From Candidatus Altimarinota bacterium (GTDB lineage Bacteria; Patescibacteriota; Gracilibacteria; UBA4473), in assembly GCA_023143095.1 (NCBI GenBank), contig JAGLIF010000006.1, positions 1-64,000 of the forward strand: a stretch of DNA of 64,000 bases. The letters run 5' to 3'. Each line of letters starts with the position of its first letter. Position 1 is the first letter of the stretch. Made by a program: the position numbers and the translations under genes. The notes under the pieces are model-generated. The model ran no database searches. It was not told the DNA's origin and saw only the letters and a list, made by a program, of their open reading frames with translations. Below are positions 5,807-49,054 of this stretch, piece after piece.

Positions 5807-7063
5807 CTATATCACAAAATCAGATAAAATTTCATCATTCGTAACATCTGTAAATTCAAATCCGCTTTTCTTCATTTTAGAAAATAATATTTCAAAATTC
5901 TTTTTATCTTCTGTTTCAATTCCAAGCAAAACTGATCCAAAATTCTTCGCTGATTTTTTTAAATATTCAAATCGAGAAATATCATCATTTGGTCCTAGTA
6001 AACCCAAAAATTCTTTAAGTGCACCCGGTCTTTGTGGAAGCCGTAAAATAAAATATTTTTTATGACCTGAAAATTTCATCGCTCTCTCTTTGACATCTGG
6101 CAATCGTTCAAAATCAAAATTTCCACCTGAAACCACACATACTATGGTTTTTCCTTTTATCTCTTTCCTATCCATATCTTTAAGTGCATCAATCGAAAGT
6201 CCTCCAGCTGGTTCAAGCACAATCCCATCATGATGCAAAAAAGTTAACATAGTTTGACACAATCGATTTTCTGGAATCAAAATAGGTTTTCTCCTTAATG
6301 TTTTCTTTAAAATTTTTAATGTTTTTTCTCCAAAACTTCCCACCGCCGCTCCATCAACAAAAGTGTCTATCTTTTTCATCTCCACTGCTTTTCCTAACTT
6401 TAAACTCTCGGTCAAACTCGAAGCGCCTACTGGTTCTACTGCAATTGTTTCAGTTTTAGGAGAATTTTCTAACAAAAATTGAGATATCCCAGAAGCAAGT
6501 CCTCCTCCTCCCACTGGTACAAAAACAAAATCCACTTGTGACAATTGTTGTCCAATTTCCGATCCCACTGTCCCCGCTCCTTCAATTGTCCATTCATGAT
6601 CATAAGGAGGCGCATAAACAGCTTTATGTTCCTTACAAAACTTTTTCGCCGCACTTGCTGCTTGATCATAAGTATCTCCTATTAAAACTACTTCTATTGC
6701 TTTTCCTCCAAAATCTTTTGTTCGACTTACTTTTTGATGAGGAGTCGTAACTGGCATAAAAACTTTTCCATTTACTCCAAATTTAGCACAAGAAAGTGAA
6801 AATCCCTGTGCAAAATTTCCTGCCGAAGCACAAACAAAATTTATATCAGATTTTTTTTCTTTAGATTCCTCTAAATAATTAGAAATAAAATGATATGCTC
6901 CACGAATTTTGTAACTTCGAACCGAACTCAAGTCTTCCCGTTTTAAGTAAACATTCGCCTCATATTTTTCTGATAAATATTCAGAAAATTGCAAAGGGGT
7001 AGGTGAAAAAACTTTGCTAAGTTTTGCTTCCGCATCAAGTACATTTTTTGTGAAAGATTTCAT
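5807..7063 (-). CDS. ilvA: Threonine dehydratase (IlvA-like), catabolic-length with C-terminal ACT-like domain
   Basis: PLP enzyme that deaminates threonine to 2-oxobutanoate. The Schiff-base lysine is Lys52 in SYKIRGA. Further fold-type II motifs are SAGNFAQG near residue 80 and the phosphate-binding loop VPVGGGGLASG near 185. After residue ~325 comes an ACT-like regulatory segment (FILRLPQRPGALKEFLGLLG). At 418 residues it matches the single-regulatory-domain form. No other branched-chain biosynthesis gene is visible here, so the role may be catabolic or salvage; in a CPR-type genome a stand-alone ilvA is unusual. The AEC transporter gene ends 9 bp upstream of its start, suggesting an operon. 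Confidence 0.9.
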   Translation of the reverse strand: MKSFTKNVLDAEAKLSKVFSPTPLQFSEYLSEKYEANVYLKREDLSSVRSYKIRGAYHFISNYLEESKEKKSDINFVCASAGNFAQGFSLSCAKFGVNGKVFMPVTTPHQKVSRTKDFGGKAIEVVLIGDTYDQAASAAKKFCKEHKAVYAPPYDHEWTIEGAGTVGSEIGQQLSQVDFVFVPVGGGGLASGISQFLLENSPKTETIAVEPVGASSLTESLKLGKAVEMKKIDTFVDGAAVGSFGEKTLKILKKTLRRKPILIPENRLCQTMLTFLHHDGIVLEPAGGLSIDALKDMDRKEIKGKTIVCVVSGGNFDFERLPDVKERAMKFSGHKKYFILRLPQRPGALKEFLGLLGPNDDISRFEYLKKSAKNFGSVLLGIETEDKKNFEILFSKMKKSGFEFTDVTNDEILSDFVI

Positions 7064-7992: not shown

Positions 7993-8493
7993 TTAAAAAT
8001 AAAATTCTAAAAACTCACTAGATCTATCTTCAAGAAACTTTCTAAAATCTTTTGTTGAAATTTTAAGAGTAGCTGTATTTCTCAATGGATGAAAATGTAC
8101 AAAATCATCCTCAAAAATTTCCTTATCTATAACAACCGAAACTTCTTCTGCATTTCCATCAATAAGCCCAAACGGGGTTACCGAACCAGGAGTAAGATTG
8201 AGATATTTTTTTAGTCTTTCTGCAGAAGCAAATCCCATTTTTCTATGTTCTTCCAATTGTTCTGCCAATACTGGAATATCTAAATTTTTTTCAGCTTTTA
8301 ATACGACTAAATAATGCTTTTTCCCTCTTTTATTTCGTAAGAAAATATTTTTACAATTCACTCCCAAATTATGCTTCTGATAAAAATCCTCTGAAGCTTC
8401 ACAAGTCGGAAAAGCTTCATGTTCTATTTTTTCAAACACAATATCCAGTGCGTTTAAATATTCGTAAAGTTTTTCTTCTGATTCATGCATCAC
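7993..8493 (-). CDS. YbaK/ProX-type aminoacyl-tRNA deacylase
   Basis: A 166-residue stand-alone editing domain of the YbaK/ProRS-INS superfamily, which hydrolyses mischarged tRNAs (typically Ala-tRNAPro or Cys-tRNAPro). Visible family marks are the N-terminal helix with EHEAFPTCEASEDF, the NIFLRNKRGKKHYLVVL strand with its conserved lysines, and LTPGSVTPFGLI, the GxxxP-type pocket loop. It overlaps the upstream lipoprotein gene by 4 bp and precedes the AEC gene by 2 bp, so all belong to the ileS transcription unit. The tRNA specificity cannot be decided here. Confidence 0.85.
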   Translation of the reverse strand: MMHESEEKLYEYLNALDIVFEKIEHEAFPTCEASEDFYQKHNLGVNCKNIFLRNKRGKKHYLVVLKAEKNLDIPVLAEQLEEHRKMGFASAERLKKYLNLTPGSVTPFGLIDGNAEEVSVVIDKEIFEDDFVHFHPLRNTATLKISTKDFRKFLEDRSSEFLEFYF

Positions 8494-8834
8494 TTAGAAA
8501 TTAGTTTCTCTATCTGCGGTTCAAGAACCTCTTTTAAATTTAATTTCAATTCTTCTCCATTTTCCAATCGTAAATAAACTTCATTTCCCACCTTTTTAAT
8601 TTTTGTAATAGATATCCCCAATACTTCTTCAAATTTTATTTTCAATTGTTCCAGTTGGACTAACTGTTTTTGATTCAACTTATCAGAAACACCGTCTTCA
8701 ATAGTCATCCATGCTTCTTGGAGTTGAGTAAAATCTGTCACCTTATTGTATTCTTCTTTTGTCTTAAAAAATATCTCCGTACACCCAGTCAAAAGAAATA
8801 ATGGTATAAAAACCGACATAAATTTTTTCATCAA
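8490..8834 (-). CDS. Small predicted lipoprotein
   Basis: A 114-residue protein. MMKKFMSVFIPLFLLTGC is a compact signal with lipobox LTGC. The mature domain is charged, alpha-helical in its first half and beta in its second (KKVGNEVYLRLENGEELKLNLKEV). No family recognised. Its ATG overlaps the ileS stop (ATGA), so it is translationally coupled to ileS. Another small lipoprotein lies at 4952-5326, but the two share no obvious similarity. Confidence 0.75.
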   Translation of the reverse strand: MMKKFMSVFIPLFLLTGCTEIFFKTKEEYNKVTDFTQLQEAWMTIEDGVSDKLNQKQLVQLEQLKIKFEEVLGISITKIKKVGNEVYLRLENGEELKLNLKEVLEPQIEKLISK

Positions 8835-11800
8835 TTTTTAATTAATTTTAAATTAATTTTTTCTCCATCAATCTCTATTTCTTCCACTGTAAGTATTTTC
8901 TCGTGCTTAATTGAAACAGCTAAAACTTCTTGAGAAATTTTGTCTTGAAACTGTTCAAAAGCAGTTTTCAAGATTTCTGATTCTGTTACAAATGAAACAT
9001 TTATACGATCTGAAATTTCAAATCCATTGATTTTCCGTTGTTCCTGAATCGCTCGAATTATTTCTCTAGCAAACCCTTCTATCTTCAACTCTTCTGAAAT
9101 TTCTGTTTCAAGTAATACAACCAATTGTCCACAATTTTCAGCATCAAATTCCCCTTCACAATCAAATTGTGCTTCATATTCATCCGCTTCCAAAATTTCT
9201 CCTGCTATTTCAATTTGTCCATCATCTAGTTCTTTAAAATTTCCTGCTTTTCCATCAACAATAAGTTCCTGCATTTTCTTCCCAAACTTTCGTCCAACCT
9301 TTCTCGCATCTACTTTTACAATTTTTTTAGCAATTTTTTTCAATGCCTCTGTCGTTAAAATTTCTATCTTTTTCACATTTGCTTCCCCCTCAATAATCAA
9401 TATATCAGAAGGCTGTAATAAGTCTTTTGCATTAGAAATCGAAAACTGTAATTTTGCCAAAGGTTGTCTCAATTTAATTTTTTTCTTCGCTCGAATACTG
9501 GCAGAAAGTCGCACTATTTCCCGAGAAATTTTTATTTTTTCATTCAATTTTTCATCAATCCAAGAATCTTTTTGTATTGGTAAAAACTCTAAATGCACAG
9601 AATTTTTTTTGTTTTGGCTCAAGTCTTGGAATAGTTTTTCTGCAAAAAATGGACAAACTGGCGCCAAAATTTTTGAAAGTGTTAAGAGCACATAATGTAA
9701 TGTTTCGTATCCAGAAATTTTGTCTTCCCCAAGCCCTTCTTCCCAAAACCGTTTTCGAGATCGTCGCAAATACCAATTATTGAGATTATCCACAAACGGT
9801 GGTATTTCTTTCAATGCTTCTGCTATTTCATACTCGTCCATTTTCGTACGATAATGCTTTAACAACACTTGTGTTTCTGACAAAATCCATAAATCCAACT
9901 CATTTTCCGTCTGTGGTAAAGCAAAAAATGAATATGAACCTCCTGTTTTAAAAGAAGGCACCATTAATGCACCCTCTTCCGTATGTACATTGTTTTGTTG
10001 AGCTACTACATAGCGAATCGGTCCCCCATGAGAAACAATTACAGTATGCTTTCCTCTATAATCTGAAGCATAATCTTCCAAAGCCTTTTCCATTCGTGCT
10101 TGAATATCTAAAAGACTTTCTCCACTACTTCGTTTGAGTCTCTCTATAATTGGAATATATTTTTCCCCTTCCAAATCTCCAAAATCAATTTCTCTCAATC
10201 TTTCATCTTCTATTGGCGTGATTTTACTTTTTGCTGTTTCAAGAATAATTTTTGCCATTTCCCTCGTTCGAATAAACGGCGAACACACGAGAAAGTCAAA
10301 CGAACCAACTACCTGTGAAACCTTTTGTGCCTGTTTTTTACCCTCTTCAGTCAAACAATGCTCATTTTCTGCTTTTCCAGAATAAACACCTAAAATATTA
10401 TGATGTGCTTCTCCATGGCGAACAAAACTAAATTTCGTCGGAGACCAACCATCAATATTCGCATATAGTTGGAAAAATTGATACGCGTTTCTAATCGGTA
10501 AAATGATTGTTTTTAAAATTTCTTCTACCCCTTTTTCTGTAAAATTAAAATTCTCTCCCTTCATCACTGAACTCGCCATGAGATAATACCGCATAGCATC
10601 TGATCCGTATTTTTCAAAAATGAGAGACGGATCTGGATAATTCTTTTTGGATTTTGACATTTTATTGCCATCTTCAGCCAAAATCGTTCCTGTACAAATT
10701 ACATTTTTAAAAGCATGTGAGTCTTTAAACGCTGTAGAAAGCACATGCAATGTATAAAACCAACCCCGAGTTTGTGAAATATACTCAGCGATAAAATCTC
10801 CTGGAAAAGTCTCGGCAAATCGGTCTTCATTTTCAAATGGATAGTGTTTTTGTGCATACGGCATCGCACCAGACTCAAACCAACAATCCAAAACCTCTGT
10901 CGTTCGTGTCATTATTCCTCCACATTTTTCGCATTTCCAAGTGTATTTATCAACAAAGTGTTTATGGAGATCTGTCACTTTTTCTCCAGACAATTTTTCT
11001 AGTTCTTTAATTGAATCTACCACTTGGTGATGTTCACAATCTTCACATTTCCAAATTGGAATCGGTGTTCCCCAAAACCGGTTTCGCGAAAGATTCCAAT
11101 CAGGAGCTGTTTCCAACCCTTTTTGAAATCGTCCGTGTTTGAGATGAGTCGGTTTCCAATTAATGTTTTCATTCTGCGTAAGCATCCGATCTTTGATCGA
11201 TTGCACATTGAGAAAATAAGCTCGTTGTGGATTATAAAAAAGTGGCGTTTCACACCTCCAACAATGCGGATAATTATGCGAATATTGTTTCGCTTCAAAA
11301 AGTTTGTCTTGCTCCTCCAACCACTGATTAATCTTTTTATTCGTGTCTTTATCCATGATCGCCATACCAGCAAAATCCGAAACGATTTTCTTAAAATTTC
11401 CTCCATCATCCACAGTTTCTAAATCCAAAATATCCAACCCCTTCTCACGAGCTAGATTGAAATCGTCTTCTCCGTACGGGGCTAAATGCACAATTCCTGT
11501 TCCTTCTTCATCTGATACAAAATCCGCTCCCACAACTTTGAATAAATCTTTCCGATTATCAAAATAAGGAAACAGTGGTTCGTAATTTTTACCTACTAAA
11601 TCAGAACCCTTTAGCATTTCTACTGTTTCAAAATCCTCTCCAAAAATTTTCGAAGCCAGCGATTTTACAACAATGCAATATGAACCTTTATAATTCACTT
11701 TTATGTACTCCAATTCAGGATTCACTGCCAAAGCAAAATTGGACGGAAGTGTCCACGGAGTAGTCGTCCAAGCCAAGATATAGGTAGGAATATTCGTATT

Positions 11801-12466
11801 CTCATCAATGAGTTTAAACTTCGCTGTCGCAGTTTGATCATGTCTCATCTGATACGAGTTATCCATCGCAATTTCGAAATTTGAAAGTGGCGTGGCACAT
11901 CGTGGACAATAAAGTGAAATTCGTCGTCCTTCGTAAATCAAATTTTTCTTATAAAGTTCAGCAAAAAGCCATATAACACTTTCCATAAAATCGATATCCA
12001 TAGTTTTATAATCGTTTTCAAAATCCACCCATCTCCCAAGTCTTGTAATAATTTTTTCCCACTCATTTACATACAACAACACCTTCGATCTACAATCTTC
12101 ATTAAATTTCTCAATTCCTATTTTTTCTTCAATATCTTTTTTGGATTTAGTTCCAAGTTCTTTTTCAACAATGTTTTCTATCGGCAATCCATGACAATCC
12201 CATCCAAATCTTCTTTCTACTCGAAACCCCTTCATTGTGAAATATCGCGGCACCATATCTTTGATCACTGACGCAAGAAAATGTCCATAATGCGGCAACC
12301 CCGTAGCAAACGGAGGTCCATCGTAGAAGGTATATTCATTTTTCGGATTTCGAGTTTCAACTGACTGCTTGAAAACTTCATAATCTTTCCAAAATTTCAG
12401 TACTTCTTGTTCTTGTACATTAAAAGATTTTTGTGAATCGACAGCCAAGAATTTTGATTTTTGCAT
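8831..12466 (-). CDS. ileS: Isoleucyl-tRNA synthetase with an inserted histidine-phosphatase domain
   Basis: Charges tRNAIle. The class I core has HYGH at residues 59-62 and KMSKS at 602-606. CPRC and CEKC zinc-type pairs and the DCWFESGAMP segment point to the eukaryote-like IleRS type 2, as do the C-terminal region and the lack of an E. coli-type zinc tail. The protein is 1211 residues, larger than usual. The normal run from ANIDGW to ELDLWILSE is interrupted by about 185 residues (about 680-865) that form a complete histidine-phosphatase (phosphoglycerate mutase-like) domain: RHGE with His684, SPFIRTRE, the EIDFGDLEG acidic motif, and SHGGP with His813. The reading frame is intact on both sides, so this is a true in-frame insertion, placed between the catalytic core and the anticodon-binding domain. 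Confidence 0.95.
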   Translation of the reverse strand: MQKSKFLAVDSQKSFNVQEQEVLKFWKDYEVFKQSVETRNPKNEYTFYDGPPFATGLPHYGHFLASVIKDMVPRYFTMKGFRVERRFGWDCHGLPIENIVEKELGTKSKKDIEEKIGIEKFNEDCRSKVLLYVNEWEKIITRLGRWVDFENDYKTMDIDFMESVIWLFAELYKKNLIYEGRRISLYCPRCATPLSNFEIAMDNSYQMRHDQTATAKFKLIDENTNIPTYILAWTTTPWTLPSNFALAVNPELEYIKVNYKGSYCIVVKSLASKIFGEDFETVEMLKGSDLVGKNYEPLFPYFDNRKDLFKVVGADFVSDEEGTGIVHLAPYGEDDFNLAREKGLDILDLETVDDGGNFKKIVSDFAGMAIMDKDTNKKINQWLEEQDKLFEAKQYSHNYPHCWRCETPLFYNPQRAYFLNVQSIKDRMLTQNENINWKPTHLKHGRFQKGLETAPDWNLSRNRFWGTPIPIWKCEDCEHHQVVDSIKELEKLSGEKVTDLHKHFVDKYTWKCEKCGGIMTRTTEVLDCWFESGAMPYAQKHYPFENEDRFAETFPGDFIAEYISQTRGWFYTLHVLSTAFKDSHAFKNVICTGTILAEDGNKMSKSKKNYPDPSLIFEKYGSDAMRYYLMASSVMKGENFNFTEKGVEEILKTIILPIRNAYQFFQLYANIDGWSPTKFSFVRHGEAHHNILGVYSGKAENEHCLTEEGKKQAQKVSQVVGSFDFLVCSPFIRTREMAKIILETAKSKITPIEDERLREIDFGDLEGEKYIPIIERLKRSSGESLLDIQARMEKALEDYASDYRGKHTVIVSHGGPIRYVVAQQNNVHTEEGALMVPSFKTGGSYSFFALPQTENELDLWILSETQVLLKHYRTKMDEYEIAEALKEIPPFVDNLNNWYLRRSRKRFWEEGLGEDKISGYETLHYVLLTLSKILAPVCPFFAEKLFQDLSQNKKNSVHLEFLPIQKDSWIDEKLNEKIKISREIVRLSASIRAKKKIKLRQPLAKLQFSISNAKDLLQPSDILIIEGEANVKKIEILTTEALKKIAKKIVKVDARKVGRKFGKKMQELIVDGKAGNFKELDDGQIEIAGEILEADEYEAQFDCEGEFDAENCGQLVVLLETEISEELKIEGFAREIIRAIQEQRKINGFEISDRINVSFVTESEILKTAFEQFQDKISQEVLAVSIKHEKILTVEEIEIDGEKINLKLIKN

Positions 12467-32359: not shown

Positions 32360-33391
32360 ATGAAAAAAAATTTTTTATTATTTCTCTTTCTTTTCTTTCT
32401 CATCTTTATTTTTGATATTGTCGAAAAATCATCACCATTTTTTTTTGAAAAGAATTTAAAAATTGATGACTTTATTCATACCAAAATAAATAATTATTGG
32501 AATCAAAAAATCATAGCTAAAAACGATTCTTTCGAAGAAATTTCCAATAAAAAAAATAACGATTCTCTAAAGAATTTATGTAAAACGCTTCCCGTAAAAC
32601 AATGGTTTCGAAGACTTTATCCGCTTAAGAAAAAATGTCTGCTTTTGGTCTTTGATAACTCAATCTTGTTAGAAGATTTTAATGAAGCAAAAAAAGCTAT
32701 ACAAGAACTTTTAATCTTTGAGCCACAAAATTTAAATTTCGTTCTTAAACACTCTCAAGTTTTTTCAAAACAACAAAAAAATAAACAAGCATTAAAAATT
32801 ATAGAAGAAGGGTTATCAATCTATCCTGATTCTTTTTCTCTTTTAGAAGAAAAAATTTCACTTTTATTTGCTCTTGAGCGTTCAAGTGAAATTATTCAGA
32901 TAGCCAATCGAATAAAACAAGAAACTCCTATGTCCGTCGAAAGCGGTCTTTTCTTTGTTTCTGCAGACAAAACCTTTATCCCTTATCAAAACAGTACCAC
33001 TATTAAGGAGATTCTATTTCTTAATGAATTTATAAATTATGAAATCTCTCTCAAAACAAGTCCCTATTTTTCAAGACTAAAAGAAACAAATTATATACGA
33101 ATTGATACTATGATCCATATGGGAGAAGTAGAAATAGAAAGTCTTCAGTTTTTTGAAGAAAACAAAAAAATATTTGAAATTAAAGATTTTGATAATTCTG
33201 AATTACATAAATTAAAATTGTTAAAACATAATCGATTTGCTTCTTTTAAAATACATCCTTATTTGATTAAAGAATTAAACTTTGATGTAAGCAGCGCCAC
33301 AAAGGCGGTATTACGAATGAAGCATAAAAAAATCTTTTCAGAGGCGATTGAAAAATTAATTAAACTTTCTCATGAAACAATGGATAAATAA
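32360..33391 (+). CDS. Membrane-anchored TPR-like protein
   Basis: A 343-residue protein. One N-terminal hydrophobic helix (residues 4-20) anchors a soluble domain. Residues ~100-185 show paired helices in TPR style (ALKIIEEGLSIYPDSFSLLEEKISLLFALERSSE). The C-terminal half (from about 195) is a mixed fold I do not recognise. The position before the CotH-like gene, with a 20-bp overlap, suggests the two work together at the cell surface. Confidence 0.6.
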   Translation: MKKNFLLFLFLFFLIFIFDIVEKSSPFFFEKNLKIDDFIHTKINNYWNQKIIAKNDSFEEISNKKNNDSLKNLCKTLPVKQWFRRLYPLKKKCLLLVFDNSILLEDFNEAKKAIQELLIFEPQNLNFVLKHSQVFSKQQKNKQALKIIEEGLSIYPDSFSLLEEKISLLFALERSSEIIQIANRIKQETPMSVESGLFFVSADKTFIPYQNSTTIKEILFLNEFINYEISLKTSPYFSRLKETNYIRIDTMIHMGEVEIESLQFFEENKKIFEIKDFDNSELHKLKLLKHNRFASFKIHPYLIKELNFDVSSATKAVLRMKHKKIFSEAIEKLIKLSHETMDK

Positions 33392-36185
33392 TTTTTTTAA
33401 ATCAAAGAAACTAACCCTGTTTCTTTTCTGCCTTGTTGTAATTGTTTTTCTCTGGCAGATTCGTATTTTTTTAGTTTTTGTAGATCAAAATCAAGGAGAA
33501 AGATGGCGAGCAGTGATTCCACTAAAACATTATGCCGAATTACAAAAAAAAGAATTTTTGAATTTTTTTAAAAAAACGCTCTATCCCAATCCTAAAAAGT
33601 CTAAACTACCTCAATTTCATATTTCTATTGAACCAAAAAACCTAAAAAAACTCAACAAATCTCTTCCTGCTTCTGGCAAAAAATATATACCCGTTAAAAT
33701 AAATTTTCAAGGAAAATCTTTTAATGGAAAACTAAAATACAAAGGCGATAATTCATATCATTGGTACTATTCCAAAAAATCTTTTCAGTTAAAACTAAAA
33801 CAAGAAAAAACTATTTGGAATCATGACACTCTCATTTTTCGAAATATTAAAAGTGGAAGTATGATGAGTGAATATATTGGAAATTTTATTGCTTCAAAAT
33901 TTAATCTTCTCTCCATAGACGAAAAATATGTAGATATATATATAAATGGAAAATATAAAGGACTTTATCTTTATACTGAATCTTTCAAAGATAAAGCATT
34001 TTTTGAAACAAAAGAATATACAGAAAATACACTTTACAGAGGAGAGCACCATAGTAAAGATCTCATCACAGGATCTCCTTGGAACTTATTTCAAAATCCT
34101 TATGGATGGGAAATACTCGGTTCAAATGAAACAAAAGAACCTTTGAAATCAATGATCAATTCTCTTCGTAAAATAAATTATGAGAACAAGGCTGTTTATG
34201 ACGAGCTTTTTAAAATTATAAATCGTAATTATTTTGAAAACTTTATGGCTTGGGCTGCTCTAGTAGAAACATACCACTACGACCATTATCATAACCTTGT
34301 CTTTTATAATAACCCTTCCTCAGGAAAATTAATTCAACTTCCAGTTGATAGTGTAGCCTTCATGCTTTGGCACAATCCACAAAAAAATTTAGATATTGCC
34401 TCTAATGATTTATATAAAGCATTTCTCCGAAATCCTGATTTCATCTATAACAAAAATAAAATTCTTTGGACAAAACTTATCGCTGGTATTGAAAATAAAA
34501 TTCTAAAAGAAATTAAAACAACACATAAAAAAATTGAAGCAAGCATTTACGCTGATTTTTCAAAGGCACATATTGTTCCTATCAGAATTCCAATGTCTTA
34601 TCAGGAACATTTAGATTATTTGAAAAAATTAAAAATAAAAATCAAACAAATGTCTTCTGAGTACAAAACCCTATTGGAAGAGGTGAATGTAAAATACAAA
34701 ATCAACGAAGCAAAAAATCAAATTGATTTCCTTGTAAATGGATGGAGTAGTGTAAGAGTAGAGGAAATAAACACTTCTTGCCAAACAAACCAAGTTTTTC
34801 GTTCCACGAATATTCCATTGCAAAAAAATGAGCTTCTACATCCTGGACGAATCACAAATATAACAGAAGATTGGCCTTATAGTCTTGCACTCTCTCCTGC
34901 ACCATTAACCTATTCTTTTTTTATAAAAAATAATTGCAAAATTGACTCACTAAAATTAAAAAATGCAATAACAGAAAATGAAGTTATTCCAAAAAAAGTA
35001 GATTCTTTTGATGAGATTCCTCTTTCTAATTTTTCTTATCATCCTTGGAAAATCGAACAAGAAAAAGCAGAAACTTTATCACTAAAGCTTAAAAAAATCA
35101 AAGAACAGTATCCCCAATTTATTATTAAAAATAATCAATTAATTATTCCAGCCCGTCAACATACTATTTCTGAAAATATTATTATTCCTCAGGAAATTTT
35201 TACAAAGATATTTCCTGGAACAACTCTACTATTAGATGAAGGTGTCTCCATTATTTCTTACGGAAAAGTTTTCGCAGAAGGCACGAAAGAACACCCCATC
35301 ACCGTTAAAGCTAAAAATTCAGAAAAACCTTTTGGCGTTTTTGCCTTAGCAAATGAAGAAGCCTCTGGAAGCCAATTTAAATATTTTCAAATCGAACATG
35401 GAAGTGAAACCATCATCAATGGTATTTATTTTTCTGGTATGTTTTCAGCTTATCACAATGATAATGTCCTTGTTGAGAACTCAAAATTTTCCTATGCACA
35501 CGCGGATGATGCTCTGAATTTCAAATATTCAAACTCAAAAGTTTTATCTTCTGAATTTTATAAAAACAGTGCAGATGCGATTGATTTTGATTTTATGTCT
35601 GGAGAAATCCGCGGAAACAAATTTATCGAAAATGGAAACGATTCCATTGATACTTCTGGAGCAACAACTCTCATAAGAGATAATTATATTTCTAAATCAG
35701 GAGATAAATGCATGAGTTTTGGGGAAAAATCAAATACGGTTGTCATCAATAATATTCTAGATGGTTGTTTTATCGGCGTAGAGTGCAAAGACTCAACTAC
35801 TTCTGTTTTAATTAATAATGCTATCATAAATAATAAAACGGCAGTAAATGCTTACCAAAAAAAAGATTTCTTTGGTCCCGCTCATTGTGAATTTCATAAT
35901 TCAATTTTTGCGGGAAACAAGCGAGGCATTGTTGCAAAAAACAATTTTAACGAAAAAGGAAAAAAAATCTCTGATACTTCTGAAACAAGTATTAAAAATT
36001 CCATTCTTCCTTATCCTGAATATGATAAAAATGAAAATATTATTGAAAAAATCCTTCCATCCGTCCTTTCAGATGAAAGAATTGGAAACATTGAAAAACT
36101 CAAAGAAGTCTTTCCAGAATATATAAACCCTACAGTTAATATTGGAATCTTTAATAAAGAGGCTATCCCTTTTATAACTCCATGA
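33372..36185 (+). CDS. CotH kinase-family protein with right-handed beta-helix
   Basis: A 937-residue protein. It has an N-terminal membrane helix (about residues 14-34), then a CotH-type domain (about 75-430). That domain has KYKGDNSYHWYYSKKSFQLKL, where the Lys corresponds to CotH's nucleotide-binding region, ADLNING-like DIYINGKYKGLYLYTESF, and PVDSVAFMLWHN. After a linker, residues ~590-880 form a parallel beta-helix of the pectate-lyase type with repeated short Asn/Asp-rich rungs (SKFSYAHADDALNFKYSNS). CotH proteins phosphorylate extracellular proteins in spore formers; here a surface protein or glycan may be the target. Its stop overlaps the VTC gene (ATGA). Confidence 0.85.
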   Translation: MKQWINNFFKSKKLTLFLFCLVVIVFLWQIRIFLVFVDQNQGERWRAVIPLKHYAELQKKEFLNFFKKTLYPNPKKSKLPQFHISIEPKNLKKLNKSLPASGKKYIPVKINFQGKSFNGKLKYKGDNSYHWYYSKKSFQLKLKQEKTIWNHDTLIFRNIKSGSMMSEYIGNFIASKFNLLSIDEKYVDIYINGKYKGLYLYTESFKDKAFFETKEYTENTLYRGEHHSKDLITGSPWNLFQNPYGWEILGSNETKEPLKSMINSLRKINYENKAVYDELFKIINRNYFENFMAWAALVETYHYDHYHNLVFYNNPSSGKLIQLPVDSVAFMLWHNPQKNLDIASNDLYKAFLRNPDFIYNKNKILWTKLIAGIENKILKEIKTTHKKIEASIYADFSKAHIVPIRIPMSYQEHLDYLKKLKIKIKQMSSEYKTLLEEVNVKYKINEAKNQIDFLVNGWSSVRVEEINTSCQTNQVFRSTNIPLQKNELLHPGRITNITEDWPYSLALSPAPLTYSFFIKNNCKIDSLKLKNAITENEVIPKKVDSFDEIPLSNFSYHPWKIEQEKAETLSLKLKKIKEQYPQFIIKNNQLIIPARQHTISENIIIPQEIFTKIFPGTTLLLDEGVSIISYGKVFAEGTKEHPITVKAKNSEKPFGVFALANEEASGSQFKYFQIEHGSETIINGIYFSGMFSAYHNDNVLVENSKFSYAHADDALNFKYSNSKVLSSEFYKNSADAIDFDFMSGEIRGNKFIENGNDSIDTSGATTLIRDNYISKSGDKCMSFGEKSNTVVINNILDGCFIGVECKDSTTSVLINNAIINNKTAVNAYQKKDFFGPAHCEFHNSIFAGNKRGIVAKNNFNEKGKKISDTSETSIKNSILPYPEYDKNENIIEKILPSVLSDERIGNIEKLKEVFPEYINPTVNIGIFNKEAIPFITP

Positions 36186-45367: not shown

Positions 45368-48300
45368 ATGTATAAAAACTGTATAAACTCTATTTTTTAT
45401 AAGCTAAGAACCAGTCTTTTTATGGGAGGCTTTTTTTTCTCCTTCTTTTCAGCTTATGCACTAGAGATTCCTCATGACATAGTTCTGCTTGAAACGGTCT
45501 CATCTATACCTCTACGGTTTGATTATATTAAAACTTCCGAAAAAAATACACTTGCTGGAAACCTTATAAATGTTCCCTCTTCTTCAAACATTGGAAAAAT
45601 TGTTTTTTCAATTATTGATAGCAATCAAGCCATCCTTTGGGAAAAAAAAGAAGACAAGCCAGAAAACATACAACAGAATAAACCCAAAGTTATTCCTTTT
45701 TTCCTCACACTCCCTACTGAAAAATTCCCAAAAAATTCAGAATTAAAAATTACCCTTTTTGGATTAAAGCAAAATTTCTTAGGCAGTACACAAAAAAAAC
45801 TACCTTTTTCCTCTTTTATTGATGTCGTCTCTGTATCTAATTTAAATGTTTCTATTCCTGATAATTCTTCTTTAGGGGAAATATCTTTTCTTGTTTCTAA
45901 TAATGAAAAAAATCTTAACTTTTCTCCACAAATCCGAATATCACCAAAAGATGTAGAAGAGAGAATTTTTTTTAAAAAGATTTTTCCAGAAGAACAAATC
46001 AAGAACAACTCTACTAAAGTGTTTTCTTTTTCATTTAATCCACCAACTTCTCCAGGACTTTATTCCGTTGAACTTTTGCTCTTAGACAAAGAAGAAAATA
46101 CTATTTCTGGAAGATTAAAAAAAGATTTTTTGATAGAAGGTGCTTTCGCTCGAATCACTTCTTTTGATACTTCTGCCAATCGATTCCTTCTAGAAAGCGA
46201 TACTCTCTCTATTGCTTTTCAGGGATTCGTTCCAGATAGCCAAAAAGAAACCTTTGCTGAAGTTTCCATCAAGCAACATTTAGAAGAAAAAGTCGTAGAC
46301 TTCCTTTTCCAATCAGTTCCTTTGACCGTAAAAAATAGTAAAATTTCTGGACTCATATCATTCCCTCTCGAAAATCCAGCGTCTCAATTCATCATTGAAC
46401 TAAAAATTAAACAAGGGAATGACATACTTATCAGTAAAATTTTTAAATCAAAAAACTTTCCAGCTCCTTTGTTGCAAGAGTTTTCTAAAGAACAAGAAGA
46501 AGATCTTTCTCAAAAAATAGAAAAACTTGAACAATCTTTTTTCGATGACTGGATACTATGGATAGCTATTATCTTTTTATTCTTCTTAATTGCTCTCAAT
46601 AGCTGGCTACGACAAGAAAAACGGTTTTTCCTTTTATTGCTTACTCCTCTCTTTTTGTGCGAATCTGCCTTTGCAGCTGTTACTGTCTTTTGGCACCACC
46701 CTATTGCTAACTGGTCATTTAATCCAATTGCAATAGAAAACAAATTTCTCCCTTTTAAAAAAGTTCTTTTTCATGGCAATATTTTTGATAATTTAACACA
46801 ACACGGATTTTTCCAAGAAACCCCACAAAGAATTATTGTTAAGTTCTTTAAAGATGGAAATGATGTATATGTTGAACCAGAAAGTTTTACTATTCAAAAC
46901 ACAAAAACCTATGATTTTGAAATTAATCTTCCAACAAGTCTTTCTAATGGCGCTTGGGGAGCTCAAATTCTATTTAAAATGAACAGCAGTTGCGGGGAAA
47001 GCGGCTGGTGTGGAACAGCTTGGCAAGATACTCTTTTAATTGATAAAACACCCCCTTCTCTAAACATTGTATATGACAATGACGCAAGCAAAGCTCTTTT
47101 TCGAACTACCCTTGGAGCTTCTGAAGAAACACTACACCAGTACCTTATTTTAAAAGAATTCAATATCAATTTAAGAAGGAGTAAACTATTTCTCAAAAAT
47201 GATAAAGTAATAGAGAGAATGGACATCTTTCAGATTAAAACGCATAAAGAAAATACGCTTATGGATAAGAATGAATATTTATATATTTTACAACAAAAGC
47301 TTGCCGACAATATTGCAATTATTGAAAGACGAACAGAAGAGGATGATATTCTAAAAGCCGCACTCGAAGCACAAATTATCATTGTTAATGAGGAAAGACT
47401 TGCCTTGGCGAACGATATTACTTCCATTGCTTCCGATATAACCACTCTTAGTAATGAAATTACGAGCTTGGAGGAAGAAATCACAACATTGAATGAAAAC
47501 ATCTCAACACCAGAAACAATTATTGAATCCATAAAACAAAGTATTCGAACCATAAAACGAGGAGCGAAAAAAGATTCTGTTGCGGTAAATATTTCTTGCT
47601 CTGATGGTGGTGCTTCCTGTCATAGAAACTCTGTTGATTTAATTATTCGTGGTAATTTTTGTGAAGAATCTGAACCAGAAAACAATTGTGACTCAATCGC
47701 TCCTCGTAATATTAAAGTTTGTGATAATATTGGAAATTGTACCTTCCCAGAAGAAAATTCATTGGAAATAGATTGGTATGACCCCGCAAAGCCAACCATT
47801 TCACAAAGTATTCTATGGAAAAACAAGGGTAATGTTGGGGGTACTGAATTTTTTCTAGATGATTCTGCTACAAATACCAATATTTCCACTGGAGAAAATA
47901 TTGCCTTTGAAATCACCGCAGCTGACTTTGAAAACCCAACCAAAGCAACTCATCCTGCTTTTTTTGATGATGACGCCTGTGGATCAAACGCAGACTCCTT
48001 CTTGTTTCCTAAAGGTGGACGCTGTGTTGAAGATGAAACGGTTTGTGCCATCTCTTCTTCTCAACGCGGAATTATTGATGATAGTGTTGGAGGCACTTGT
48101 ACAACAGAATGTGCACCTGGTTATATTGCTGATGGACTTTTTTGCATATTAAAATGTGATTATCATCTCTTTGATGGATGTCTTCCTTTTAATTTAATTG
48201 GTGTAGGTTGTGAAGACTCGGAATGGCTACCAACACCTGAAAGCGTTCAAAATGGAACTAGTTTTGTCCAAACTAGCAACTGTGGGTCAACTCGACAAGC

Positions 48301-49054
48301 TGTTGGTACTGGAACTGGTCTTTATCAAGTAGAAGCATCTCTTCAATTTGGTGCCTTGGATAATTCTTTTCTTTCTCGATTCCCCTTGATAGGAAGTAAT
48401 CAAAATACTTGGACATGGAGCGGATGGATAAAACAAGGAGAACTTGATCGTTCTCAGATAATATTTAATGCAGGCGATGATAATACTAACTGGACTTCAA
48501 TTAAATTTGATGATTCCAACCGTCTGCAAATCGAACATCAAGTTGACGGCACAACAAATACTAATATCACCTCTTCCACATTATTCAACAATCAAGATAC
48601 TTGGATGCACCTCGTCGTTGTTTGGGATACCACCAATGTTTTACCTGAAAACCGAGTACAAATTTATGTTGATGACAATCGTATTGTCAACTTTGATACG
48701 AACATAATACCACCTCTTCATAGTAACTCATTCATAAACAATCTTTCCAATCATTCAATGGGGAGGTTTGTTGGAACTTCTTCAGAAGATTTTTTCAATG
48801 GTCTTTTTGCAGAAGTTGTTTTTGTTGATGGACAATCACTTTCTCCCTCTTCTTTTGGGGAATATAATATCGATACAAAATGGATTCCTCGTTCATTTGA
48901 TGGAACTCATGGAACAAATGGATTTCACTTAAATTTCAGCGATTCATCTTTTTTAATGTCTCTCGGAAATGATTCTTCTGAAAATAATAATCACTGGCTC
49001 CTTAATAATTTTGAATTAAGTGACTCCTTGTCTGATTCTCCCTCCAACCCTTAA
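45368..49054 (+). CDS. Large surface protein with two export signals, coiled coil and LamG domain
   Basis: A 1228-residue protein. The first signal-like segment (residues ~12-32, ending SAYAL) precedes beta-rich domains to about 385. A membrane helix (WILWIAIIFLFFLIALNSWL, about 397-416) is followed at once by a second signal-like stretch ending CESAFAA (about 425-436), then further beta domains. A predicted coiled coil spans ~670-725 (ITTLSNEITSLEEEITTLNEN), then Cys-rich loops at ~770-960. A LamG/concanavalin-like domain covers ~990-1180 and is followed by a tail (GTNGFHLNF, GNDSSENNNHW, DSPSNP) reminiscent of phage tail proteins. It is probably a cell-surface adhesin. Confidence 0.8.
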   Translation: MYKNCINSIFYKLRTSLFMGGFFFSFFSAYALEIPHDIVLLETVSSIPLRFDYIKTSEKNTLAGNLINVPSSSNIGKIVFSIIDSNQAILWEKKEDKPENIQQNKPKVIPFFLTLPTEKFPKNSELKITLFGLKQNFLGSTQKKLPFSSFIDVVSVSNLNVSIPDNSSLGEISFLVSNNEKNLNFSPQIRISPKDVEERIFFKKIFPEEQIKNNSTKVFSFSFNPPTSPGLYSVELLLLDKEENTISGRLKKDFLIEGAFARITSFDTSANRFLLESDTLSIAFQGFVPDSQKETFAEVSIKQHLEEKVVDFLFQSVPLTVKNSKISGLISFPLENPASQFIIELKIKQGNDILISKIFKSKNFPAPLLQEFSKEQEEDLSQKIEKLEQSFFDDWILWIAIIFLFFLIALNSWLRQEKRFFLLLLTPLFLCESAFAAVTVFWHHPIANWSFNPIAIENKFLPFKKVLFHGNIFDNLTQHGFFQETPQRIIVKFFKDGNDVYVEPESFTIQNTKTYDFEINLPTSLSNGAWGAQILFKMNSSCGESGWCGTAWQDTLLIDKTPPSLNIVYDNDASKALFRTTLGASEETLHQYLILKEFNINLRRSKLFLKNDKVIERMDIFQIKTHKENTLMDKNEYLYILQQKLADNIAIIERRTEEDDILKAALEAQIIIVNEERLALANDITSIASDITTLSNEITSLEEEITTLNENISTPETIIESIKQSIRTIKRGAKKDSVAVNISCSDGGASCHRNSVDLIIRGNFCEESEPENNCDSIAPRNIKVCDNIGNCTFPEENSLEIDWYDPAKPTISQSILWKNKGNVGGTEFFLDDSATNTNISTGENIAFEITAADFENPTKATHPAFFDDDACGSNADSFLFPKGGRCVEDETVCAISSSQRGIIDDSVGGTCTTECAPGYIADGLFCILKCDYHLFDGCLPFNLIGVGCEDSEWLPTPESVQNGTSFVQTSNCGSTRQAVGTGTGLYQVEASLQFGALDNSFLSRFPLIGSNQNTWTWSGWIKQGELDRSQIIFNAGDDNTNWTSIKFDDSNRLQIEHQVDGTTNTNITSSTLFNNQDTWMHLVVVWDTTNVLPENRVQIYVDDNRIVNFDTNIIPPLHSNSFINNLSNHSMGRFVGTSSEDFFNGLFAEVVFVDGQSLSPSSFGEYNIDTKWIPRSFDGTHGTNGFHLNFSDSSFLMSLGNDSSENNNHWLLNNFELSDSLSDSPSNP

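Follow-up and report, generated by a model that had tools for sequence, protein, structure and literature searches.

A histidine-phosphatase domain inserted in the isoleucyl-tRNA synthetase of a Candidatus Altimarinota bacterium and its recurrence in synthetases of Patescibacteria

The isoleucyl-tRNA synthetase gene and its inserted domain

The stretch of DNA analysed here (the window) comprises the first 64,000 nucleotides of contig JAGLIF010000006.1 (assembly GCA_023143095.1) from Candidatus Altimarinota bacterium, placed among the Gracilibacteria of the Patescibacteriota. Positions 8831 to 12466 carry, on the minus strand, a gene for an isoleucyl-tRNA synthetase (IleRS) within which a histidine-phosphatase (HP) domain is inserted (Table 1). 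This architecture had been proposed in an earlier reading of the letters alone, made without database searches (the sequence-only reading), whose coordinates were right and which left the strand unstated. Both Pfam and NCBIfam matches place the HP inside the IleRS, and neither their E-values nor the recurrence of this architecture in independent assemblies is compatible with chance.

The host protein matched the NCBIfam ileS model TIGR00392 with 892.4 bits, against a cut-off of 621.4, and the Pfam tRNA-synt_1 domain with 442 bits. An AlphaFold2 (AF2) model of residues 1-1015 had a mean predicted local distance difference test score (pLDDT) of 90.5 and a predicted template modelling score (pTM) of 0.86, and the structures nearest to it were those of yeast IleRS, Priestia type 2 IleRS and others (9wqt, 8c8v, 7d5c, 1ile). 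Like the proteins of TIGR00392 and of these structures, the window IleRS has the catalytic, editing and anticodon domains, DUF5915 and the HIGH and KMSKS motifs; unlike the listed structures, whose descriptions mention no phosphatase domain, it contains one. As judged from its sequence, the host is a complete type-2-like IleRS with intact catalytic motifs. Since it is the sole IleRS found in its genome, we infer that it charges tRNA-Ile with isoleucine.

The inserted domain matched Pfam His_Phos_1 at residues 681-830 with 105.3 bits (E 4e-30, cut-off 21.7). Its RHG signature is formed by R683, H684 and G685, which together with R733, E759 and H813 make up the full residue set of branch 1; His684 (in RHGE) and His813 (in SHGGP) stand at the positions given in the sequence-only reading. 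Modelled on its own, the domain reached a pLDDT of 94.1 and a pTM of 0.90. The closest folds were PhoE (1h2e; Z 22.3, root-mean-square deviation 2.1 over 173 aligned residues) and PspA (4ij6; Z 22.2), CobC (6e4b) being matched at Z 20.3, and the 50 fold matches listed span only about 3 Z units. In fold and catalytic residues the inserted domain thus resembles the broad-specificity phosphatase PhoE/YhfR (1h2e), the phosphoserine phosphatase PspA (4ij5/4ij6) and the alpha-ribazole phosphatase CobC (6e4b, 6nru), which it matches in profile comparisons at E 2e-19 to 5e-15. These relatives, however, are free-standing chains of about 200-230 residues, whereas the IleRS-borne HP lacks a segment between FGDLEG and GES, about a dozen residues being absent there in the profile alignment with PhoE and PspA. 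We take the segment between FGxLEG and GES to be part of the active-site lid, and its loss therefore suggests a pocket that is open, probably to a greater degree than in PhoE or PspA.

In the host model the HP is placed between helix 644-671 and helix 856-877, in the loop linking the helix on the KMSKS side to the anticodon helical bundle, which the HP adjoins. Five Peregrinibacteria and Patescibacteria loci with no HP at this site have YANIDGW followed by 10-17 loop residues and LDxWIL, in agreement with the interrupted ANIDGW to ELDLWILSE junction proposed in the sequence-only reading. The insert thus takes the place of a short variable loop of HP-free IleRS.

Conservation in the family and recurrence in Patescibacteria

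The closest named relatives are metagenome-assembled genomes (MAGs), labelled Candidatus Gracilibacteria for the most part. In a family sample of 20 genomes, the window's own included, the HP occupied the same place (site A, residue 677) in 19 of the 19 genomes with a recognisable IleRS; only ValRS (valyl-tRNA synthetase) and LeuRS (leucyl-tRNA synthetase) frames were found in the twentieth, G008. The sequence-only reading had named a chimeric assembly as a finding that would overturn it. The single open frame and the identical junction in separately assembled genomes from many sites leave a chimera or an annotation artefact with a negligible probability, and chimeric assembly was ruled out by the shared architecture of the relatives.

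Among the 19 family IleRS, mean identity of the HP was 0.43, versus 0.72-0.73 for the Rossmann parts and 0.49 for the editing domain. Eighteen of 155 HP columns were invariant, including R683, H684, N690, R733, E759 and H813, and the chance that R683, H684, R733, E759 and H813 all fall within 18 of 155 columns is 1e-5. Pairwise distances of HP and host were correlated (Mantel r 0.59; none of 5000 permutations was equally high), indicating that the HP was inherited together with its host. These comparisons make it almost certain that the insert is real and vertically kept. The residues are also conserved in the IleRS-borne domains of all three insertion sites described below: wherever the column was filled, the first His was present in 60 of 60 domains and the second in 61 of 61 (Arg733 and Glu in Table 1), the Arg of RHG was likewise retained in every copy that includes it, and the loss of both that the sequence-only reading had considered was not seen.

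To look for further cases, relatives and the phylum were searched with PF00300, and the frames were then fetched and classified. In the numbering of the window IleRS, HPs occur in IleRS at site B1 (~490-516, the second zinc-finger region), at site B2 (~546-553) and at site A; in ValRS they lie at the equivalent of B1, singly or in tandem. Across 68 evenly drawn Patescibacteria genomes, an HP was found within IleRS in 9 and within ValRS in 4, and these accounted for every one of the 13 HP-bearing frames with at least 800 aa, to which the count is limited. Such frames fetched from 41 relatives were IleRS or ValRS in 47 cases out of 48, the other being UvrB (the shorter frames L046, L055, L071 and L090 are excluded). 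Elsewhere in the phylum, where 18 new loci covering some of the long frames listed were fetched, 14 of 14 frames of this length were IleRS (9) or ValRS (5). In the genome from which the window comes (1.2 Mb, 97% complete), three HP domains were found, one in the IleRS and two in the ValRS; none of them is outside a synthetase, and no free HP was found. Its ValRS (G000:C5, L004:3072-7094, minus strand) carries a tandem pair after WWGHQIPVW in an open frame of 1341 aa. The sequence-only reading thus saw the insertion and the intact motifs correctly and missed their recurrence in three loops of IleRS and one of ValRS, including the two HPs in the ValRS of the same genome.

In a tree of the HP domains, 20 ValRS copies formed one group (Shimodaira-Hasegawa-like approximate likelihood ratio test, SH-aLRT, 98) and the site-A copies of the family another (97), while copies from other Gracilibacteria, several of them TGA-recoded, formed a separate site-A group (99). 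These separate groups make several entries of the HP into the synthetases likely, gain and loss not being distinguishable by a quick tree of this kind. Fragments shorter than 140 aa, the duplicate second domain of L056, the remote HP open reading frame (ORF) L057 275-1054 and the split row L120 were dropped from it. Outside Patescibacteria, two sets of genomes were surveyed. In 33 genomes reached via non-Patescibacteria loci, HP was matched 100 times, always in frames of at most 416 aa. In 400 genomes from the phylum to which G304 belongs (L170, a Chloroflexi MAG), the junction-profile matches were HP-only among those listed, with frames up to 540 aa.

It should also be noted that a Peregrinibacteria IleRS of 1490 aa (L134:1210-5679) has an insert of ~340 residues at site B2 that is unmatched by the window HP query. 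Other HP fusions in Patescibacteria (L182-L185) join a 2-hydroxyacid dehydrogenase to an HP, an HP to pyruvate kinase, or VTT to an HP. They share phylum and guest family with the window IleRS but join their domains end to end, with no insertion into a synthetase.

Gene neighbourhood

Downstream of the IleRS lie genes for a putative lipoprotein, a tRNA-editing protein, a permease and a threonine dehydratase, whose frames overlap or nearly touch (Table 1). In 18 other loci of the family, some of whose contigs end early, a homologue of the tRNA-editing gene was found 3' of the IleRS in 10 and one of the threonine dehydratase gene in 5. Three genomes of one genus (G010, G016, G019) have a free HP gene between the tRNA-editing gene and the threonine dehydratase gene, with overlapping frames, in the IleRS operon. 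In the domain tree this free HP groups with the HPs inserted at site B2 of IleRS (SH-aLRT 98). The same kind of HP therefore occurs both as an operon partner and as a domain of IleRS.

As separate observations, the second catalytic His is replaced by Asn in the ValRS-borne HPs of L087, L088 and L089, whose genus also has the free HP in the IleRS operon. Elsewhere in the window, a protein of 1228 aa that contains a Laminin_G_3 domain (45368-49054) and a 937-aa CotH kinase and beta-helix protein (33372-36185) are possibly surface or cell-envelope proteins.

Table 1. Coordinates of the IleRS gene, its domains and residues, and the adjacent genes in the window
Feature	Coordinates	Strand	Basis
IleRS gene with inserted HP domain	8831..12466	minus	1211 aa, stop included; ATG start
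Class I catalytic domain tRNA-synt_1, residues 22-640, editing domain within	10547..12403	minus	Pfam
HIGH-type motif HYGH, residues 59-62	12281..12292	minus	Sequence; adjacent columns nearly invariant (alignments A2, A4)
KMSKS motif, residues 602-606	10649..10663	minus	Sequence; columns invariant or nearly invariant (A2, A4)
Inserted HP domain (branch 1), residues ~676-850	9917..10441	minus	Pfam; AF2 model; PDB fold matches
His684 of RHGE, family nucleophile position	10415..10417	minus	H in 60/60 IleRS-borne domains with the column filled
Arg733 of SPFIRT, second phosphate-pocket Arg	10268..10270	minus	R in 61/61 IleRS-borne domains
Glu759 of EIDFGDLEG, general acid position	10190..10192	minus	E in 59/60 filled IleRS-borne domains, Asp in 1
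His813 of SHGG, second catalytic His	10028..10030	minus	H in 61/61 IleRS-borne domains
Anticodon_1, anticodon-binding helical bundle, residues 858-1004	9455..9895	minus	Pfam
DUF5915, C-terminal IleRS domain, residues 1024-1209	8840..9397	minus	Pfam
114-aa ORF, overlaps the stop of the IleRS; putative lipoprotein (LTGC, judged by eye)	8490..8834	minus	ORF list; nothing above the Pfam cut-off
Aminoacyl-tRNA editing (deacylase) domain protein, PF04073	7993..8493	minus	Pfam
Mem_trans permease, PF03547	7073..7990	minus	Pfam
Threonine dehydratase (PALP and Thr_dehydrat_C)	5807..7063	minus	Pfam

A tethered phosphatase and its alternatives

The explanation that we favour, with a probability of roughly 0.55, is that an intact IleRS carries a complete, probably active phosphomonoesterase with an open pocket, tethered in the site-A loop. 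In sequence and in the predicted models, guest and host are each complete, with their catalytic residues retained, as the sequence-only reading had held, and the inserted HP is very probably an active phosphatase. By analogy with its superfamily, His684 would take the phosphate from the substrate, Arg683, Arg733 and His813 would hold it, and Glu759 would protonate the leaving group, after which water would free the phosphate. The substrate would most likely be a small metabolite bearing a phosphate, encountered at, or produced beside, the system that charges tRNA with isoleucine or valine, and the tether would guarantee co-expression and proximity of HP and IleRS. The chances that the link between HP and IleRS is functionally meaningful, and not mere parking, are about even.

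Weighing against this explanation are the state of the ValRS-borne copies, the scores with named phosphatase subfamilies, and the other guests and hosts found in the surveys. In 25 ValRS-borne domains the first His and the Arg were each kept in 25, the second His in only 21 and the Glu in only 15. Judged by their catalytic residues, kept in the IleRS set and partly lost in the ValRS set, the IleRS-borne HPs look like selected enzymes and some ValRS-borne HPs appear to be decaying. This loss, together with the fast divergence of the remaining HP sequence (mean identity 0.43), would suit a domain without catalysis that serves as a structural spacer or an RNA-binding arm, and a role as spacer only had been left open by the sequence-only reading. 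However, both His and Arg733 are kept in all IleRS-borne copies covering them, and the catalytic residues were retained while the domain diverged to ~43% identity, which makes an inert domain most improbable.

As to the subfamilies, the window HP scored 85.3 bits with the CobC equivalog TIGR03162 (cut-off 162.9) and 55.8 bits with the PspA equivalog NF045917 (cut-off 350), and it reached the cut-off of no functional HP subfamily of NCBIfam among the equivalogs seen. The substrate is for this reason not readable from the sequence, and naming it by family was dropped, the equivalogs seen lying far under their cut-offs and the fold matches being nearly equal in Z. A small molecule, rather than tRNA or protein, is nevertheless the probable substrate, because the nearest characterised relatives act on small phosphometabolites and because insertion at several loops speaks against one fixed tRNA geometry. 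A nucleotide or an alarmone close to the tRNA, as suggested in the sequence-only reading, received neither support nor contradiction from these data. A macromolecular substrate docked on the synthetase, either a phosphate at the 2', 3' or 5' end of tRNA or, as for SixA, a phosphorylated residue of IleRS or of a partner, appears improbable. The shortened lid-side segment and the position of the HP against the anticodon-binding bundle would suit such a substrate, and SixA, a short phosphatase, is reported to act on a phosphoprotein (PMC12051542, PMC7948535). The SixA model TIGR00249, for its part, was not within the best 25 of 32 NCBIfam matches of the window protein. What weighs against a macromolecule is that the closest characterised relatives in sequence and fold are small-molecule phosphatases, and that three different insertion loops in IleRS make a single fixed tRNA geometry unlikely.

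Other guests are also found in these synthetases. Among 36 IleRS scanned, NUDIX was present in 3, GNAT in 3, DUF559 in 1 and Ser_hydrolase in 1, and among 22 ValRS, Ser_hydrolase in 1 and HAD in 1; both sets were chosen because they bear an HP, and the tallies are not phylum frequencies. Further inserts (GNAT, serine hydrolase, DUF559, NUDIX and a weak MuF_C) accompany the HP in the IleRS of L074, L075, L078, L081, L084, L062, L091 and L092, those of L074, L075 and L081 having both GNAT and HP. Four long LeuRS frames of the family contain Ser_hydrolase (L193, in two stretches, and L195) or Y1_Tnp, a Y1/IS200-type transposase domain (L194 and L196). Besides, the UvrB of L060 (L060:4061-7435; 955 bits with NF003673) has an HP and a serine hydrolase inserted together, and its HP is sister, in the domain tree, to the one in the IleRS of the same genome. 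Finally, where an HP is inserted, 6 of 11 genomes lacked a free one, as did 16 of 57 others, a difference that is not significant (Fisher p 0.16 across the 68 genomes), and the idea that inserted HPs replace free ones was dropped. A separate case is the ValRS of L175 (1827-5657), in which a HAD hydrolase, a serine hydrolase and an HP are all inserted.

The unrelated guests in loops of IleRS, ValRS and LeuRS suggest that these synthetases may simply tolerate insertion. The loops would then accept, in frame, small compact domains with adjacent termini, and the HP, a housekeeping phosphatase of the ordinary sort required by the cell, would owe nothing to its location except assured expression. 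This possibility, less probable than a tethered enzyme, is in line with the confinement of the window genome's three HPs to synthetases where no free HP was found, with an insert that stands where unfused IleRS have a short variable loop, with sites that differ between lineages, and with the sister HP in UvrB. It is at odds with the strong restriction of the HP to IleRS and ValRS (13 of 13 frames), though LeuRS accepts other inserts, with the free HP gene in the IleRS operon of one genus, and with retention in all 19 family genomes with an IleRS. The same confinement, operon partner and long retention are the arguments that attachment matters, a question on which we see an even balance.

A broader and rather doubtful reading is that, in Patescibacteria, IleRS and ValRS, and partly LeuRS, serve as hubs that carry house-cleaning enzymes (HP, HAD, NUDIX, serine hydrolase, GNAT) on surface loops. 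Under this unlikely scheme, the guests would clear by-products or toxic look-alikes of aminoacyl-adenylate chemistry where they arise, the HP being the commonest module. Equally speculative candidate targets would be AMP, dinucleotide polyphosphates, released non-cognate aminoacyl-nucleotides and nucleotide antibiotics.

The sequence-only reading knew of no characterised IleRS with such a domain. No description of a histidine phosphatase in IleRS or ValRS was found in the literature searched, which left most subscription journals and preprints outside its scope, and the word 'phosphatase' is absent from the matched passages of the AARS Online paper (PMC11580382). By contrast, a synthetase with a guest enzyme is already a known kind, because NCBIfam holds an exception model, NF040702 (ileS_w_GNAT), for an IleRS with an extra enzyme domain, as in the window. 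Its guest is GNAT and that of the window is HP; the window protein scored 279.1 bits with this model, short of the cut-off of 1999, and had no Pfam match to GNAT. What is new, within the literature searched, is the HP as a guest in IleRS and ValRS.

Taken together, these results indicate that a synthetase which is essential and present in a single copy has retained inside itself, through deep divergence, a further enzyme whose catalytic residues are intact, and that several loops of IleRS and ValRS have received HPs. A functional coupling would reveal an activity for which a cell with a small genome has use at the enzymes that charge isoleucine and valine; parking would be a clear example of essential enzymes on which whole enzymes can land when genomes are streamlined. 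In both cases, since all three HPs found in the window's genome are within synthetases, Patescibacteria genes annotated plainly as IleRS or ValRS can hide phosphatases.

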